Origin: a bacterium
GTDB taxonomy: Bacteria > Zixibacteria > MSB-5A5 > WJJR01
DNA length: 64,000 nt
Assembly: GCA_021813505.1 (NCBI GenBank)
Contig: JAKAKI010000057.1
Span: 1 to 64,000 of the forward strand
Reading direction: 5' to 3'
The position numbers and the translations under genes were made by a program. This document shows positions 3,085 to 53,561 of this stretch, piece by piece (the first letter of the stretch is position 1; the number at the start of each line of letters is the position of its first letter). The notes beneath the pieces are model-generated. The model did no database searches. It was not told the origin of the DNA and saw only the letters and a list, made by a program, of their open reading frames with translations.

Positions 3085-3164
3085 AGAGGGCGGTCCGCCG
3101 CGACGAACTGCCGAGCCTTGTTGGCGCGCAGGCACGAGGCTCGGCGGGAGCCTCGCCCTCCCTC
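3085..3164. repeat. Palindromic repeat, family A (degenerate copy)
   Basis: The right arm GGCTCGGCGGGAGCCTCGCC (from 3138) matches the family A consensus. The left arm is reduced to a core, GCCGAGCCTTG (3110-3120), pairing with CGAGGCTCGGC. It lies between the PGA hydrolase start and the end of the alpha/beta hydrolase gene. Confidence 0.6.
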
Positions 3165-3225
3165 AGCATGCGTTACTCTCCACCAAGGAAGTCAATCGCT
3201 GATTCAACTGTGAGATTCTCCGATT

Positions 3226-16871: not shown

Positions 16872-17417
16872 CTAAACGTCGATTAGAATGACCTTGACCG
16901 GGACAGCAGGGAAGTGTCGCTTTAGCCGCTCAATATCATAGACCAACTGCTCGCCGTACGATACGCCCGTCGACATTTGTTTGTGCATAGCATGACACGG
17001 AACGATTTCAACACCAACATCTGCTTTGTTCTCACTAAAGAAGTACTGGAACTTGGCCATGTCATAAAACATGAACGCGTACTTCCCGAATTGCACTTCA
17101 AGTAGTACCCGCTCCTTTACGAAGTCAATCTGTTTGAAGGCCCCTGAAATTGTTGTCTTGTAGCCGGGGAGTGAAATTGTATACGTGTCGCGAAGCTCTG
17201 CGAATCCAAGGGCGTTGAATTGGGTCTTGAACGAGTTGTTGATTTCCTTGGGGGAATAGAGAAGTTCGCCGGGCATGGTCCTCTCTTTGCTGACCTTTGT
17301 CTTCCCGGGAGCAGGTAACATCCTTATGACACCGTTAATCTCGCGCTCAATCCTGGGATAGCGAACACGAAGAATTTCGCTCCCGCCAAGATGAGAGTAC
17401 TCATACACTCGGCGCAA
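16872..17417 (-). CDS. Type II restriction endonuclease, BstYI/BglII family
   Basis: 181 residues from TTG 17417, starting RRVYEYSHLGG, which parallels the start of BstYI as I remember it. The family core is visible: KVSKERTMPGELLYSP (41-56), QIDFVKERVLLEVQFGKYAF (96-115) and VGVEIVP. Catalytic residues by comparison with BglII are Asp98, Glu107 and Gln109 (the EVQ signature). The likely site is RGATCY or AGATCT, which is inference. It follows the methyltransferase gene by 2 bases, so they are co-transcribed with the methylase first. Base composition is lower in GC than the neighbours, as expected for a transferred R-M unit. Confidence 0.88.
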   Translation of the reverse strand: MRRVYEYSHLGGSEILRVRYPRIEREINGVIRMLPAPGKTKVSKERTMPGELLYSPKEINNSFKTQFNALGFAELRDTYTISLPGYKTTISGAFKQIDFVKERVLLEVQFGKYAFMFYDMAKFQYFFSENKADVGVEIVPCHAMHKQMSTGVSYGEQLVYDIERLKRHFPAVPVKVILIDV

Positions 17418-17419
17418 CC

Positions 17420-18355
17420 TTACACTCTCCCTTGCTGAAAAATCGGCAACTCGCCAACTGGGAACACAATTACTTTTTGCAGTTTCTGTCCACCGTTGGG
17501 CAGAGTCGGATCATAGATCGGTCGTGTCATAGGTCTCGTTCGTATTTCTCCCAACCAGGCCTTTCTGATTCGGTCCCGCGCTGTTGAGACGTAATCCTCT
17601 ACGATTTCAGCACTGGCGGAACGACGATTGTGCAGGATCGAGGCAACAGCGGTCGTGCCGACTCCTGCAAACGGGTCAAGCACTAGATCGTCCTCAGCTG
17701 TAAGGGATAGAATGAGCCGCTCTACCAATTCCACGGGAAATTGACAGGGATGGAGGGTCTTTTCAACGTGGTTGCTCTTGACGTTGGGAATCTGCCATAC
17801 GTCCCCGGGATTCTTCCCCCGCGGATCGCAGGAGTATTGTCCCGCCTTAGGCCCCTTGAAGTGCTTCTTCTTCGGATATTTCTGAGGAACGCGCACCTCG
17901 TCAAGATTAAAGAAGTAGTCATCCGATCTTGTGAACCAACTAATTGTCTCATATCTTCCCGAGAATCGCTTGCTGCAATGAAGTCCGTGCTCAAAGTGCC
18001 AGATTATTCGGTTGCGAAGTGTGAGCCCAAGGCTGCGGAAGACGGGAAAGAGCGCTGTATCGAGAGGGGTAATTGCCCCATTGTTGACATAATTCCCTGT
18101 CTGCCAGCAAATGCTACCCGCAGAATCCAGCACTCGAACACATTCCCCGATGATTTCGGCCTGTTGCTCAAGGTAGCTGTCGAGGTCCAAGCGCTTCTCG
18201 TACGCCTTGCCGATGTTGTATGGCGGTGATGTGACCACCAGTTGAACTGCTCCATCTGGAATACCGCGAAGCAACTCCCGGCAGTCACCTTGATGGAATA
18301 CCACCCGAGCCGTCGCCTCGAACCGATCACGAACTGATAACCTGCGATTCCTCAT
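17420..18355 (-). CDS. Type II DNA methyltransferase, beta class
   Basis: 311 residues from ATG 18355 (a TTG sits directly before it). The catalytic motif TSPPYN (42-47) precedes the SAM motif DPFAGVGTT (227-235), giving the beta-class order. TSPPY is most common in N4-cytosine enzymes, fitting the m4C methylase of the BglII system, though N6-adenine methylation cannot be ruled out. It protects the host site against the adjacent BstYI-like nuclease. No controller (C) protein gene is seen. The AT-rich 120 bases upstream (18356-18478) probably hold its promoter. Confidence 0.9.
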   Translation of the reverse strand: MRNRRLSVRDRFEATARVVFHQGDCRELLRGIPDGAVQLVVTSPPYNIGKAYEKRLDLDSYLEQQAEIIGECVRVLDSAGSICWQTGNYVNNGAITPLDTALFPVFRSLGLTLRNRIIWHFEHGLHCSKRFSGRYETISWFTRSDDYFFNLDEVRVPQKYPKKKHFKGPKAGQYSCDPRGKNPGDVWQIPNVKSNHVEKTLHPCQFPVELVERLILSLTAEDDLVLDPFAGVGTTAVASILHNRRSASAEIVEDYVSTARDRIRKAWLGEIRTRPMTRPIYDPTLPNGGQKLQKVIVFPVGELPIFQQGRV

Positions 18356-18478
18356 CAAGAGAACCTACGCGCGTCGACTCTTTGCCGTCCATCATTTTCT
18401 TTCATAATGTTGTTCAATTCCTGCTAAATAGGTATTCTCATCCTGGCGGAGGCATTGAAACAGCATTGGACTCTTGCC

Positions 18479-20161: not shown

Positions 20162-20218
20162 TCTAGGTTGCGAAAAACTCTGCTTCGATGCTGTTCGTGG
20201 TGACGAGGCGTGTCTCTC

Positions 20219-20426
20219 CGCGCGGCTACGCCCTCACCCCAACCCTCTCCCAGAGGGAGAGGGAGTCTGCCTCCCGTGAAATCCTAACTCTCATCTCTTA
20301 TCCAACTTCTTTTCTCCCCTCTCCCTCTGGGAGAGGGAGTCTGCCTCCCGTGAAATCCTAACTCTCATCTCCTATCCAACTTCTCTTCTCCCCTCTCCCT
20401 CTGGGAGAGGGGTCGGGGGTGAGGGC
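20219..20426. repeat. Left copy of direct repeat flanking DUF559 (family H), with 74-bp internal duplication
   Basis: CGCGCGGCTAC then an element bounded by inverted ends GCCCTCACCCC (20230-20240) and GGGGTGAGGGC (20416-20426). Inside, a 74-bp unit is tandemly repeated (20257-20330, 20331-20404) with two mismatches. The right copy at 20839-20972 has one unit, so this copy is exactly 74 bp longer. It fills the gap between rng and the DUF559 gene. Confidence 0.9.
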
Positions 20427-20462
20427 GATCCCGCGCGACCGTCACCCCCCCGTACCCAACGA

Positions 20463-20825
20463 TCAGATTCCTACCGTCCCAGTGACTCTTACAATCTCCT
20501 CGAGCACTCCTTCCAGCTTGTTCACGACGTCGGAGTTGCAGAAACGCAGTACGCGAATTCCCTGCGCCTCAAGCCATTCGGTACGTTCGCGGTCCTCACG
20601 CTCACGGGTGTCGTGCACCGCGCCATCGATTTCCACCGCAAGCCGGCATTCATGGCAGTAGAAATCCAGTATATATCGCCCCAAGGGTTCCTGCCTGCGG
20701 AACTTCAAGCCAGCCAGACGGCGGTCACGAAGATGTTTCCAGAGCGATTCCTCGGCAGGTGTGAGTTGCTTGCGAAGTTCTCTGGCGCGAACTCTGATGG
20801 CGCCTGAAGTGCGAGTATTCGGCAT
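20463..20825 (-). CDS. DUF559 (Vsr-like) endonuclease-fold protein
   Basis: 120 residues from ATG 20825 (MPNTRTSGAIRV; an in-frame TTG lies two codons earlier). Typical DUF559 sequence: LTPAEESLWKHLRDRRL, KFRRQEPLG, ILDFYCHE, LAVEIDGAVHD and GIRVLRFCNSDV. The Asp of LDFYC and the Glu of VEIDG are the likely metal-binding residues of the PD-(D/E)xK/Vsr nuclease fold. The biochemical role of the family is not established; mismatch or homing-type endonuclease activity is a hypothesis. The gene sits between two direct copies of a palindromic element. Confidence 0.9.
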   Translation of the reverse strand: MPNTRTSGAIRVRARELRKQLTPAEESLWKHLRDRRLAGLKFRRQEPLGRYILDFYCHECRLAVEIDGAVHDTREREDRERTEWLEAQGIRVLRFCNSDVVNKLEGVLEEIVRVTGTVGI

Positions 20826-20838
20826 AGACAACTCTTCC

Positions 20839-20972
20839 CGCGCGGCTACGCCCTCACCCCTGCCCTCTCCCTGAGGGAGAGGGAGTCTGCCTCCAGTGAC
20901 ATCCTAACTCTCATCTCTTATCCAACTTCTTTTCTCCCCTCTCCCTCTGGGAGAGGGGTCGGGGGTGAGGGC
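20839..20972. repeat. Right copy of direct repeat flanking DUF559 (family H)
   Basis: CGCGCGGCTAC (20839-20849), then GCCCTCACCCC (20850-20860) to GGGGTGAGGGC (20962-20972). Same orientation and near-identical to the left copy, but with a single 74-bp unit. It ends 4 bases before the fmt stop codon. Confidence 0.9.
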
Positions 20973-20975
20973 TTT

Positions 20976-21938
20976 TCACCCGCGCAAAAGCTCCATATTC
21001 ACGGTCTCGAATCTCTCCCCCTTCGTCACTCGGTACCCTCTGACAAACTCCGCCCCAGTTTGCGGTGCCTTCCCCTCGGGCTGGATCAGTTTCACTTCGA
21101 GGCCACAGTCACCGCCGGCTATAACGAGTCGTGATTTCGGATTGGCTTCGATCACTTCCCCGGCGGCGGTGGGCTCTGTCAACGATCCCGCGTTGGACAC
21201 AGCGAGAATCTTGACCAACTTCTGCCGAAACAGCGCCACGGCTCCGGGAGCGGGCGCGAGTCCTCGAACACGATTGACCGACGTGGCTCCTGGTTCCTCG
21301 AAGTGGAGAATCCGGTCTGCCGGTGTGATCTTCGGAGCGGTCGAGGCACGGGAGTTGTCTTGTGTCTGCGGACGAACGTCACCCAGGGATAGGCGCCGCA
21401 GAGTTTCCATGACAACATCTGCACCGAGGACCGATAATCGTTCGGCCAGTGCGCCGGCGTTCTCGTCGGGGCCGATTGACGTCTGCTCTTGCATCAGAAT
21501 ACCGCCAGTATCGACCGTCTTCTGGAGAAGGAAGGTCGTCACGCCAGTTGAGGTCTCGCCCGCCATGATCGCGCGTTGGATCGGCGCCGCGCCCCGATAG
21601 GCCGGCAGAAGCGAAGCGTGCAGATTGAACGCGTAGTCCACCAATGTAAACACCGTCTCCGGCAAAATCCGGTACGCCACGACAACAAACACGTCGGCCG
21701 CCATGTCGCGCAATTGCGCGGCAAAGGCTGGATCGCTCAACCTGGCCGGCTTCCAAACCGGTTGAAAACTCTGTGCCGCCGCCCATTCGGCAATGGGAGT
21801 CGGCGCAATCTTTCGTCCCCGTCCCTGCGGTTTGTCTGGCCCTGTAACGATACCGCAGAGTTCAAACTGCGGGTGCGCCTGGATCGCCTTCAGTGCGGGC
21901 AGTCCGAATGCACCCGTTCCAAAAAAGACCAGCTTCAC
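20976..21938 (-). CDS. fmt: Methionyl-tRNA formyltransferase
   Basis: 320 residues from GTG 21938 (KLVFFGTGAFGLPALKAI), the usual Rossmann start of Fmt. FNLHASLLPAYRGAAPIQRAI carries the catalytic His and folate-binding region, and TGGILMQEQ follows; the C-terminal OB domain ends the protein. It formylates initiator Met-tRNA using 10-formyl-THF. The start overlaps the def stop by 4 bases (GTGA), so the two are translationally coupled, as in many bacteria where deformylase and formyltransferase are paired. Confidence 0.95.
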   Translation of the reverse strand: MKLVFFGTGAFGLPALKAIQAHPQFELCGIVTGPDKPQGRGRKIAPTPIAEWAAAQSFQPVWKPARLSDPAFAAQLRDMAADVFVVVAYRILPETVFTLVDYAFNLHASLLPAYRGAAPIQRAIMAGETSTGVTTFLLQKTVDTGGILMQEQTSIGPDENAGALAERLSVLGADVVMETLRRLSLGDVRPQTQDNSRASTAPKITPADRILHFEEPGATSVNRVRGLAPAPGAVALFRQKLVKILAVSNAGSLTEPTAAGEVIEANPKSRLVIAGGDCGLEVKLIQPEGKAPQTGAEFVRGYRVTKGERFETVNMELLRG

Positions 21939-22536: not shown

Positions 22537-22610
22537 GAGGGAGGGTATGGCTCCTGCCGAGCCTCTCCCCGCGCGGCAAGAAGGCTCGGCAGGAGCCTCG
22601 CCCTCCCTCG
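22537..22610. repeat. Palindromic repeat, family A
   Basis: Left arm GGGTATGGCTCCTGCCGAGC and right arm GGCTCGGCAGGAGCCTCGCC, separated by a loop of about 20 bases containing CCCGCGCGGC. It lies in the gap between yajC and def. Confidence 0.9.
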
Positions 22611-22623
22611 GACTTCTGTTCGC

Positions 22624-25834: not shown

Positions 25835-25926
25835 ATGGGAGGGCGAGGCTCCTGCCGAGCCAGGTTTCCGCGCACGAGGCCGCTGTCGCGCGGAACCAAG
25901 GCTCGGCAGGAGCCTCGCCCTCCCAT
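25835..25926. repeat. Palindromic repeat, family A (full copy)
   Basis: Arms ATGGGAGGGCGAGGCTCCTG and CAGGAGCCTCGCCCTCCCAT pair perfectly; the inner loop is CCAGGTTTCCGCGCACG with GCGCGGAACCAAGG. Sits in the 390-bp gap between the DtxR-like and the 26000-26515 genes, with other repeats and no gene. Confidence 0.92.
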
Positions 25927-26515: not shown

Positions 26516-26583
26516 GGACGGAAATCAATGGTAGGATTGGAAGGAATTCAAGAAGCGTCAGAACCCGAGGAATCGGAGTTGGA

Positions 26584-26653
26584 GGGAGGGCGAGGCTCCT
26601 GCCGAGCCTCTTGTCCGCGCGGAAACATGGCTCGGCAGGAGCCTCGCCCTCCC
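26584..26653. repeat. Palindromic repeat, family A
   Basis: AGGGAGGGCGAGGCTCCTGC ... GCAGGAGCCTCGCCCTCCCG, with the loop containing TTGTCCGCGCGGAAACA. Confidence 0.92.
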
Positions 26654-26680
26654 GCTCGCGGCCAGCTTGCAAGAAACGGG

Positions 26681-35580: not shown

Positions 35581-35646
35581 GGGCAGAAATCAATCGGATC
35601 AACCCGCGGATGTCCAGAATTGCTTCAAATAGCAGCGATCACTGGT

Positions 35647-35720
35647 GTGGGAGGGCGAGGCTCCTGCCGAGCCTCGTGTCCGCGTGGAAACAAGGCTCGG
35701 CAGGAGCCTCGCCCTCCCAC
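35647..35720. repeat. Palindromic repeat, family A
   Basis: GTGGGAGGGCGAGGCTCCTG ... CAGGAGCCTCGCCCTCCCAC with perfect 20-base-plus arms; the loop contains GTGTCCGCGTGGAAACA. Between the ROK kinase and the FAD oxidoreductase. Confidence 0.93.
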
Positions 35721-35766
35721 ATGCCACATTACAGAATTGCCACGACCGCCGATGCTAACCAGGATT

Positions 35767-51354: not shown

Positions 51355-51391
51355 TTTCGAAATCGAATACTCCTCGCGGCAACATAACATT

Positions 51392-51792
51392 GCGGGCAAG
51401 AGGCTTTCAGCCCCTTGGCGAATTACGCAGAAACCAAGGGGCTGGAAGCCCCTTGTCCGCAAGTGTGGAGTTGCGCGGAGATCAATGCGCCAAAAGCACA
51501 TCGGTCGCAAAGTGCGAAGAGAACCGGGAATCGCGATGCGGTCCCTGTGCGGGCAAGGGGCTTTTAGCCCCTTGGCGAATTACGGAGAAACCAAGGGGCT
51601 GGAAGCCCCTTGTCCGCAAGTGTGGAGTTGCGCGGAGATCAATGCGCCAAAAGCACATCGGTCGCAAAGTGCGAAGAGAACCGGGAACCGCGATGCGGTC
51701 GCTGTGCGGGCAAGGGGCTTTAGCCCCTTGGCGAATTACGGAGAAACCAAGGGGCTGGAAGCCCCTTGTCCGCAAGGCATGGAGTTGCGCGG
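51392..51792. repeat. Tandem array of 157-bp units carrying family B palindromes
   Basis: Units start at 51392, 51549 and 51706 (GCGGGCAAG), a constant period of 157, with the third truncated near 51792. Each unit holds the palindromic modules AGGGGCTTTTAGCCCCTTGG and CCAAGGGGCTGGAAGCCCC. 157 is not a multiple of 3, so it is not coding. It fills the gap between tRNA-Arg and the HEAT-like gene (51355-51855). Confidence 0.93.
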
Positions 51793-53365: not shown

Positions 53366-53437
53366 GGGAGGGCGAGGCTCCTGCCGAGCCTCTTTGTGCC
53401 CTGCCGCGCGAAGGCTCGGCGGGAGCCTCGCCCTCCC
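53366..53437. repeat. Palindromic repeat, family A
   Basis: GGGAGGGCGAGGCTCCTGCC ... GGCGGGAGCCTCGCCCTCCC, with a loop of about 25 bases. In the gap between lemA and the DUF2207 gene. Confidence 0.9.
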
Positions 53438-53561
53438 TCGGAGTGTTCGGCAATAGGGAGAAGACGCGTTTCGTAGGGCATATTGCATACGCCCCCGAAC
53501 GGCGAGAGAAATCACTTCATGGCTGAGCGATTCCAGTATCGCGTAGGAGGGGGCTAGACCG

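Follow-up and report, generated by a model that had tools for sequence, protein, structure and literature searches.

A DUF559 nuclease gene and the triplex-capable hairpin repeats flanking it as probable parts of one mobile, homing-like system

In a genome of the phylum Zixibacteria, a small nuclease gene is situated between two direct copies of a palindrome-ended repeat, raising the question of whether gene and repeats form one mobile unit or are neighbors by chance. The locus lies in the window, i.e., the whole stretch of 64,000 bp that was analyzed (contig JAKAKI010000057.1), between rng and fmt. The original prediction had described both copies as led in by CGCGCGGCTAC, bounded by GCCCTCACCCC and GGGGTGAGGGC, and sharing one orientation, with the left copy being longer by exactly one 74-bp unit (197 vs 123 bp); all of this was confirmed by the coordinates (Table 1). 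A repeat search of the window detected one 125-nt family at positions 20213, 20287, and 20833 with 82-94% identity, the distance between the first two representing the 74-bp step inside the left copy. The head pattern CCCTCACCCC-NN-CCCTCTCCC occurs four times in the window compared with 0.01 expected. Each copy represents a REPIN, i.e., two inverted units of tag and hairpin; consequently, the gene-proximal arms are mutually inverted and their tags point toward the gene.

Table 1. Positions of the nuclease gene, both repeat copies, and their parts within the window.
Feature	Position	Strand	Remark
Segment separating the aligned rng and fmt regions, 819 bp	20181..20999		195 bp in sister species G131, without repeat or DUF559
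Lead-in CGCGCGGCTAC, common to both copies	20219..20229		other at 20839-20849
Left repeat copy, 197 bp	20230..20426		REPIN plus one extra 74-bp unit: tag-hairpin...hairpin...hairpin-tag
Outer tag, left copy, GCCCTCACCCC	20230..20240	+	
Outer hairpin, left copy	20243..20263		
Middle hairpin, left copy	20317..20337		74-bp step, the extra length of the left copy
Inner hairpin, left copy	20391..20411		beside the 3' end of the gene
Inner tag, left copy, GGGGTGAGGGC	20416..20426	-	facing the gene, 36 bp off the stop codon
DUF559 (PF04480) nuclease ORF, 122 aa	20463..20831	-	profile match and AF2 model
Right repeat copy, 123 bp	20850..20972		REPIN, orientation as left: tag-hairpin...hairpin-tag
Inner tag, right copy, GCCCTCACCCC	20850..20860	+	facing the gene, about 20 bp off the start codon
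Inner hairpin, right copy	20863..20883		
Outer hairpin, right copy	20937..20957		
Outer tag, right copy, GGGGTGAGGGC	20962..20972	-	

The assignment of the enclosed gene to DUF559 was likewise borne out by a profile search (PF04480, E=6e-40), the match scoring 135.9 bits against a curated cut-off of 20.6 and spanning positions 4-107 of the 109 in the profile. Translation starts either with TTG at 20831 or with ATG at 20825, and a genome-wide search found the gene in single copy in the 3.89-Mb genome. Its conserved residues are E27, R46, Q47, D56, E67, D69, and H73. The AF2 model (pLDDT 87) adopts an endonuclease-like fold, superposing on PDB 3HRL with a TM score of 0.88; the DUF559 profile matches the same entry at E=1.7e-34. 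This solved structure of the family, NGO0050 from Neisseria gonorrhoeae, is described merely as endonuclease-like, its entry title assigning no function, and in one gonococcal record the DUF559 gene likewise lies between two direct repeats of ~120 bp with CCCTCTCCC hairpins. A distant profile match connects the family to the catalytic domain of I-Bth0305I (PDB 3R3P, E=3.3e-5), which Foldseek also retrieved with the window model (E=2.1e-4). In the fold ranking of the AlphaFold model, 3HRL is followed by I-Bth0305I and then PvuRts1I, with Vsr placed lower. Outside DUF559, this homing endonuclease appears to be the closest relative of solved structure. Close to the unit, the window additionally encodes a restriction endonuclease resembling BglII (PF09195, E=2e-18) with an adjoining N6/N4 DNA methylase (PF01555) at 16872-18358.

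The possibility of the repeat being private to this locus was rejected: it is dispersed over its own genome in 133 BLAST pieces, amounting to dozens of copies and thus not being confined to the nuclease. The tag plus arm pattern CCCTCACCCCN{1,4}CCCTCTCC matches 62 times in this genome, its reversed control not once. An abundant repeat without link to DUF559 would, according to the original prediction, reduce the association to chance. Our comparison across phyla covered the loci of the 80 proteins most closely related to that of the window, from about 20 phyla; as a consequence of this sampling, the following holds for that branch of DUF559 and not for every member of the family. Comparing 300 bp left with 300 bp right of the gene at a threshold of >=30 bits, with no repeat sequence assumed, revealed a repeat common to both flanks at 53 of 73 testable DUF559 loci, compared with 12 of 546 control ORFs, i.e., other ORFs from the same loci (p=5e-48). 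About a quarter of the 73 loci showed no matching flank repeats in this test. Within 150 bp of DUF559, the density of tagged hairpins is 4.51 per kb; it falls to 0.86 per kb at 150-300 bp and to 0.027 per kb at 4-10 kb, a ~160-fold difference between the innermost and outermost range. Tagged hairpins are present on both sides at 37 of 73 DUF559 loci and at none of 930 random places. The pairing of gene and repeat is recurrent, and the repeat, abundant as it is, is specifically linked to the nuclease.

Within the phylum of the window, the arrangement of repeat, DUF559, and repeat is found with other stem sequences as well. The window-type tag plus arm pattern occurs in 13 of 26 phylum genomes with a strong DUF559 match and in 13 of 107 others (p=7e-5, a value obtained from 133 genomes that ignores their relatedness). 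Speaking against a common system, some genomes are rich in the repeat without DUF559 (28 pattern matches in G128 and 12 in G131), although several of them are incomplete MAGs. Most DUF559-bearing genomes of the phylum hold one copy. This, together with the window genome having a single nuclease gene but dozens of repeats, would also suit a domesticated partner, i.e., a mostly vertically inherited, single-copy host DUF559 that acts in trans while repeats land nearby and the gene itself rarely moves, as RAYTs do (PMC3116915, PMC3733652).

In almost all cases, the repeat common to both flanks belongs to a single type, namely a hairpin whose left arm is C/T and which carries a G-rich tag (GGGTGAGGG, GGGTGGGGG, GGGAGAGGG). 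The tag mirrors the purine arm, each A being matched by T or A, and it co-varies with the stem: agreement with the triad rules of a triplex was 0.946, compared with 0.856 when tags were swapped between loci (0/1000). A mirror of the stem outperformed a direct repeat as description of the tag by 36:5, and the latter pairing was rejected, showing no clear co-variation. Its C/T-G/A hairpin and the mirror-symmetric third strand next to it identify the DUF559-flanking repeat as the known, orphan "intrastrand triplex" (PIT/TM) motif. This motif has been known for two decades in many copies from hundreds of genomes, including E. coli K-12 with its 23 TM sites, and is tied to genome instability; triplex formation by the E. 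coli single strand was reported in vitro and not seen in vivo (PMC4666352). Holder 2015 describes the same hairpin with its mirror third strand, the E. coli GGGGAGAGGGTTAGGGTGAGGGG beside ycjD being one example, and did not find a mobility gene near it (PMC4666352), whereas here the DUF559 family is linked to the motif and co-variation between tag and stem is demonstrated. As far as could be found, this co-variation across phyla is new.

The orientation of the arms depends on the context of the gene. Considering loci with both arms orientable, the tags of free-standing DUF559 genes face the gene in 34:0 cases, the window locus sharing this layout, while copies lying in frame within other genes carry their tags outermost in 26:4 cases, the two groups differing with p=5e-14. 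Hairpins merely serving as regulators, terminators, or RNA-stability elements of a Vsr-like repair gene, unrelated to mobility, are hardly credible as an explanation. The gene is indeed compact and intergenic, and many free-standing genes are immediately preceded by GGGTGAGGG, which could act as a ribosome-binding stretch; against this, the repeats are dispersed, a tag mirroring its stem is unexpected for a terminator, and in-frame copies bear the same type of arm as translated sequence. Furthermore, according to work cited in PMC4666352, PIT elements acted neither as promoters nor as terminators in E. coli.

Repeats of this type could also be moved by an unrelated transposase, e.g., a Y1/HUH RAYT or TIRYT, with DUF559 being merely enclosed in repeat-rich neighborhoods tolerant of small nuclease genes. 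Composite capture between repeats is a generally known phenomenon. In addition, the TIRs of some TIRYT genes share the motif GGGGWSAS, which is fitted by GGGGTGAG (PMC3733652). Within the window genome, none of ten Y1_Tnp (RAYT-type) loci carries the tag of the DUF559 repeat within 700 bp, and several of them carry their own, different inverted palindromes, which indicates that repeat-transposase and repeat-DUF559 pairs coexist as separate systems. Control ORFs are almost never situated between two repeats, the pairing is encountered repeatedly, in about 20 phyla and with differing stem sequences, and the arms are inverted with an orientation fixed by context. Taken together, these observations make passive capture very improbable. 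Two further palindromic families were observed in the window. Tandem 157-bp units with AAGGGGCTGAAAGCCCCTTGTCCGCAA-type palindromes occupy 51391-51776; the same family flanks the gene of one Y1_Tnp locus (L063) as a 32-bp inverted pair and is therefore probably a RAYT-type REP. A second dispersed family, GGGAGGGCGAGGCTCCTGCCGAGCC / GGCTCGGCAGGAGCCTCGCCCTCCC, is located at 3093-3168, 22538-22621, 25835-25926, 26570-26658, 35643-35723, and 53366-53442, and was absent beside the Y1_Tnp loci of the window genome.

The original prediction had also suggested a search for empty sites. In the sister species G131, belonging to the same genus and with rng and fmt aligning at about 90%, the spacer between these genes lacks the nuclease gene and both repeats; it holds an unrelated GTGGCGCAGGCGCCCTCGCCTGCG element, like one found beside a Y1_Tnp gene. 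Short rng-fmt spacers lacking the repeat-DUF559 unit are also present in other genomes of the family. A further case of variable presence is provided by E. coli, in which ycjD is a DUF559 gene with the TM motif between ycjD and fabI, carried by about 3,365 of 5,426 genomes. As a clean pair of occupied and empty site this case was rejected: an efflux operon occupies the site in the five ycjD-less strains that were opened, so that presence and absence alone are usable.

In addition to these intergenic units, DUF559 was found in frame within at least seven different genes, with up to several copies per genome. Host genes were named from sequence motifs, MetH and LeuS alone being checked by search. 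The insertions precede GVIWHTQGSGKS in hsdR (L125, L150, L098, L213), LFIDARNLG in hsdM (L103, L116, L141), PPHVLVMTATPIPRT in recG, and FTTRPDTIFGV in the editing region of leuS, which also has a second site; type ISP restriction-modification genes (L041, L072, L115) and a recB/UvrD-like gene are further hosts. In metH of Flavobacterium and Maribacter, the linker before GKILMATVKGDVHDIGKN is interrupted, and a second metH site exists as well. Residues 1-379 and 524-896 of the translated F. cucumis stretch align to human methionine synthase, with the DUF559 insert in between. Insert-free MetH relatives possess the linker YIEASKDGKSSSAGKVLMATVKGD, and carriers read IEASKR-[arm-DUF559-arm]-AGKVLMATVKGD. 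Among 150 Flavobacterium genomes, most species have an uninterrupted metH at this site and about 20 an interrupted one, with no second metH present in the carriers; among the leuS carriers checked, MAG G135 alone has another, intact leuS. The arms are free of stops in the frame used and read as linkers (e.g., PLPLGEGRGEG), which keeps the frame of the host enzyme open. Since inserts of about 130-150 aa are filled by DUF559 and these linkers, there is no room for a Hint domain. The site residues D..E.D..H are conserved in >97% of 188 DUF559 domains, and D56, E67, and D69 are all intact in 184 of them, showing the nuclease site to be kept even within host enzymes.

Several in-frame loci displayed peculiarities of their own. 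Two separate inserts per frame were observed in MetH (L288 in G287 and L289 in G294) and in one LeuRS (L270 in G173). Other long frames with units have hosts guessed from motifs as folK-like, peptidase M14-like, a 1480-aa ORF, and NB-ARC-like (L137, L134, L122, L113, L221), one unit of this group being located just before a cas4-like ORF. Decayed copies with few or no recognizable arms are represented by L217, L219, L283 (leuS), and L284 (recB-like), with L219 and L284 having lost active-site residues too. Arm erosion as a predictor of active-site loss was dropped after examining the Flavobacterium in-frame copies (Fisher p=0.50). Besides the unit, the Desulfuromonadales hsdM of L116 contains the palindrome CGTCATTCCCGCGAAGGCGGGAATCCA in frame, which resembles a REP of the CGTC type. 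Terminal sequences of greater length (GTCCCTAAAGTTTTTGTG) lie beyond the C/T hairpins in the Legionella loci L131 and L147, which may be composites with another element. No target-site duplication of the DUF559 unit was defined. A 21-bp duplication, ACAGTATCTCGTGCCAACGAG, lies on either side of the right repeat arm alone in the hsdM of L103 and could be the target duplication of a single repeat.

Phylogenetic analysis showed the nuclease domains to group by insertion site and not by host, requiring 29 label changes compared with 84.1 for shuffled labels (0/200). The recG nucleases constitute one starred clade and the recB nucleases one clade; those of metH site A fall into one starred clade, apart from a pair placed within the clade of site B, indicating a change of site. 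One starred hsdR/hsdM clade combines Bacteroidota, Kiritimatiellota, Thermodesulfobacteriota, Kryptoniota, Elusimicrobia, and an archaeon. Mapping the insert, present in 15 carriers, onto a tree of the metH flanks requires 13 changes, about as many as with shuffled labels (13.4), at least eight of them being forced by starred branches. Insert and flank distances correlate with r=0.50, so part of the history is vertical, and many independent losses of an old metH insert, instead of copying, may likewise have contributed to its distribution. Site-specific lineages in combination with scattered hosts nevertheless read as the signature of homing-type copying plus loss. For a domesticated host nuclease, the whole unit missing at the orthologous rng-fmt site of close relatives, the insert being scattered over metH alleles, and the described in-frame and multiple copies are all unfavorable, and we consider this explanation unlikely. 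That repeat-DUF559-repeat is a compact unit that apparently spreads, as originally suspected, is well supported by the association across phyla, the lineage-specific presence between rng and fmt, the in-frame insertions, and the site-specific nuclease lineages.

In our preferred interpretation, which we regard as probable, the gene for the DUF559 nuclease and the tagged hairpin repeat, capable of forming a triplex, together make up a single mobile, homing-like nuclease-repeat system. The nuclease would drive copying along a homing route, with the repeat arm as its recognized substrate. It would break or nick DNA at the tagged repeat, at a sequence similar to it, or at an empty target, and repair from a copy holding the unit would then write repeat, nuclease, and repeat into this site, as for a homing endonuclease. 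Repeats alone may multiply in trans, the dispersed gene-free repeats being non-autonomous relatives of the unit, as REPINs are to RAYT transposases. The action of the nuclease at the repeat, already considered in the original prediction, is an inference drawn from the sequences.

Comparison with known systems leads us to rate this one as both REPIN/RAYT-like and homing-like, and as a full member of neither. REP/REPIN-RAYT (TnpAREP) "REPtrons" share the tagged palindrome and the inverted dimers (REPIN) (PMC3116915, PMC3733652), dozens of dispersed copies, and one enzyme gene flanked by inverted copies, with intragenic in-frame copies being known there, too. Their enzyme is an adjacent Y1/HUH transposase and their tag GTAG or CGTC, these being the classes of the REP survey (PMC3733652), whereas the partner here is DUF559 (Vsr/EDxHD-like), the tag is of CCCTCACCC-type and mirrors the stem, and in-frame copies carry the nuclease itself. 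An identity with CGTC REPs was rejected on account of the differing sequence. Rickettsia palindromic elements also occur in frame in protein genes, but are short and contain no enzyme; two of their families are CGTC REPs (PMC3733652). With the EDxHD homing endonuclease I-Bth0305I (3R3P; PMC3943268), the system shares site-specific lineages, patchy presence, and copies in conserved genes. It differs in that no intron or intein is apparent around DUF559, the host frame appears to keep the domain as a translated insertion, tagged repeats occur at both ends, and the 122-aa protein is without a long DNA-binding extension. A literature search by titles and abstracts, with preprints and most subscription journals outside its range, returned no published link between DUF559 and these repeats; the REP survey (PMC3733652) was not among the papers mentioning DUF559.

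Recurring in many phyla and found even within the reading frames of essential enzymes, the pairing resembles a type of mobile element that has been overlooked. We tentatively propose, as a claim standing slightly on the doubtful side of even, a new class of prokaryotic mobile elements, in which DUF559 would recognize triplex-forming ends and home intergenically as well as, unspliced, in frame into essential enzymes, with PIT/TM repeats, those of E. coli included, being its non-autonomous progeny. The system offers a candidate enzyme for a repeat class previously without a mobility gene (PMC4666352) and a possible role for a very common domain of unknown function. Furthermore, nuclease domains reside apparently unspliced in a cell's only LeuRS or methionine synthase gene, so that a homing-like cycle could be tested directly for essential genes in laboratory strains.
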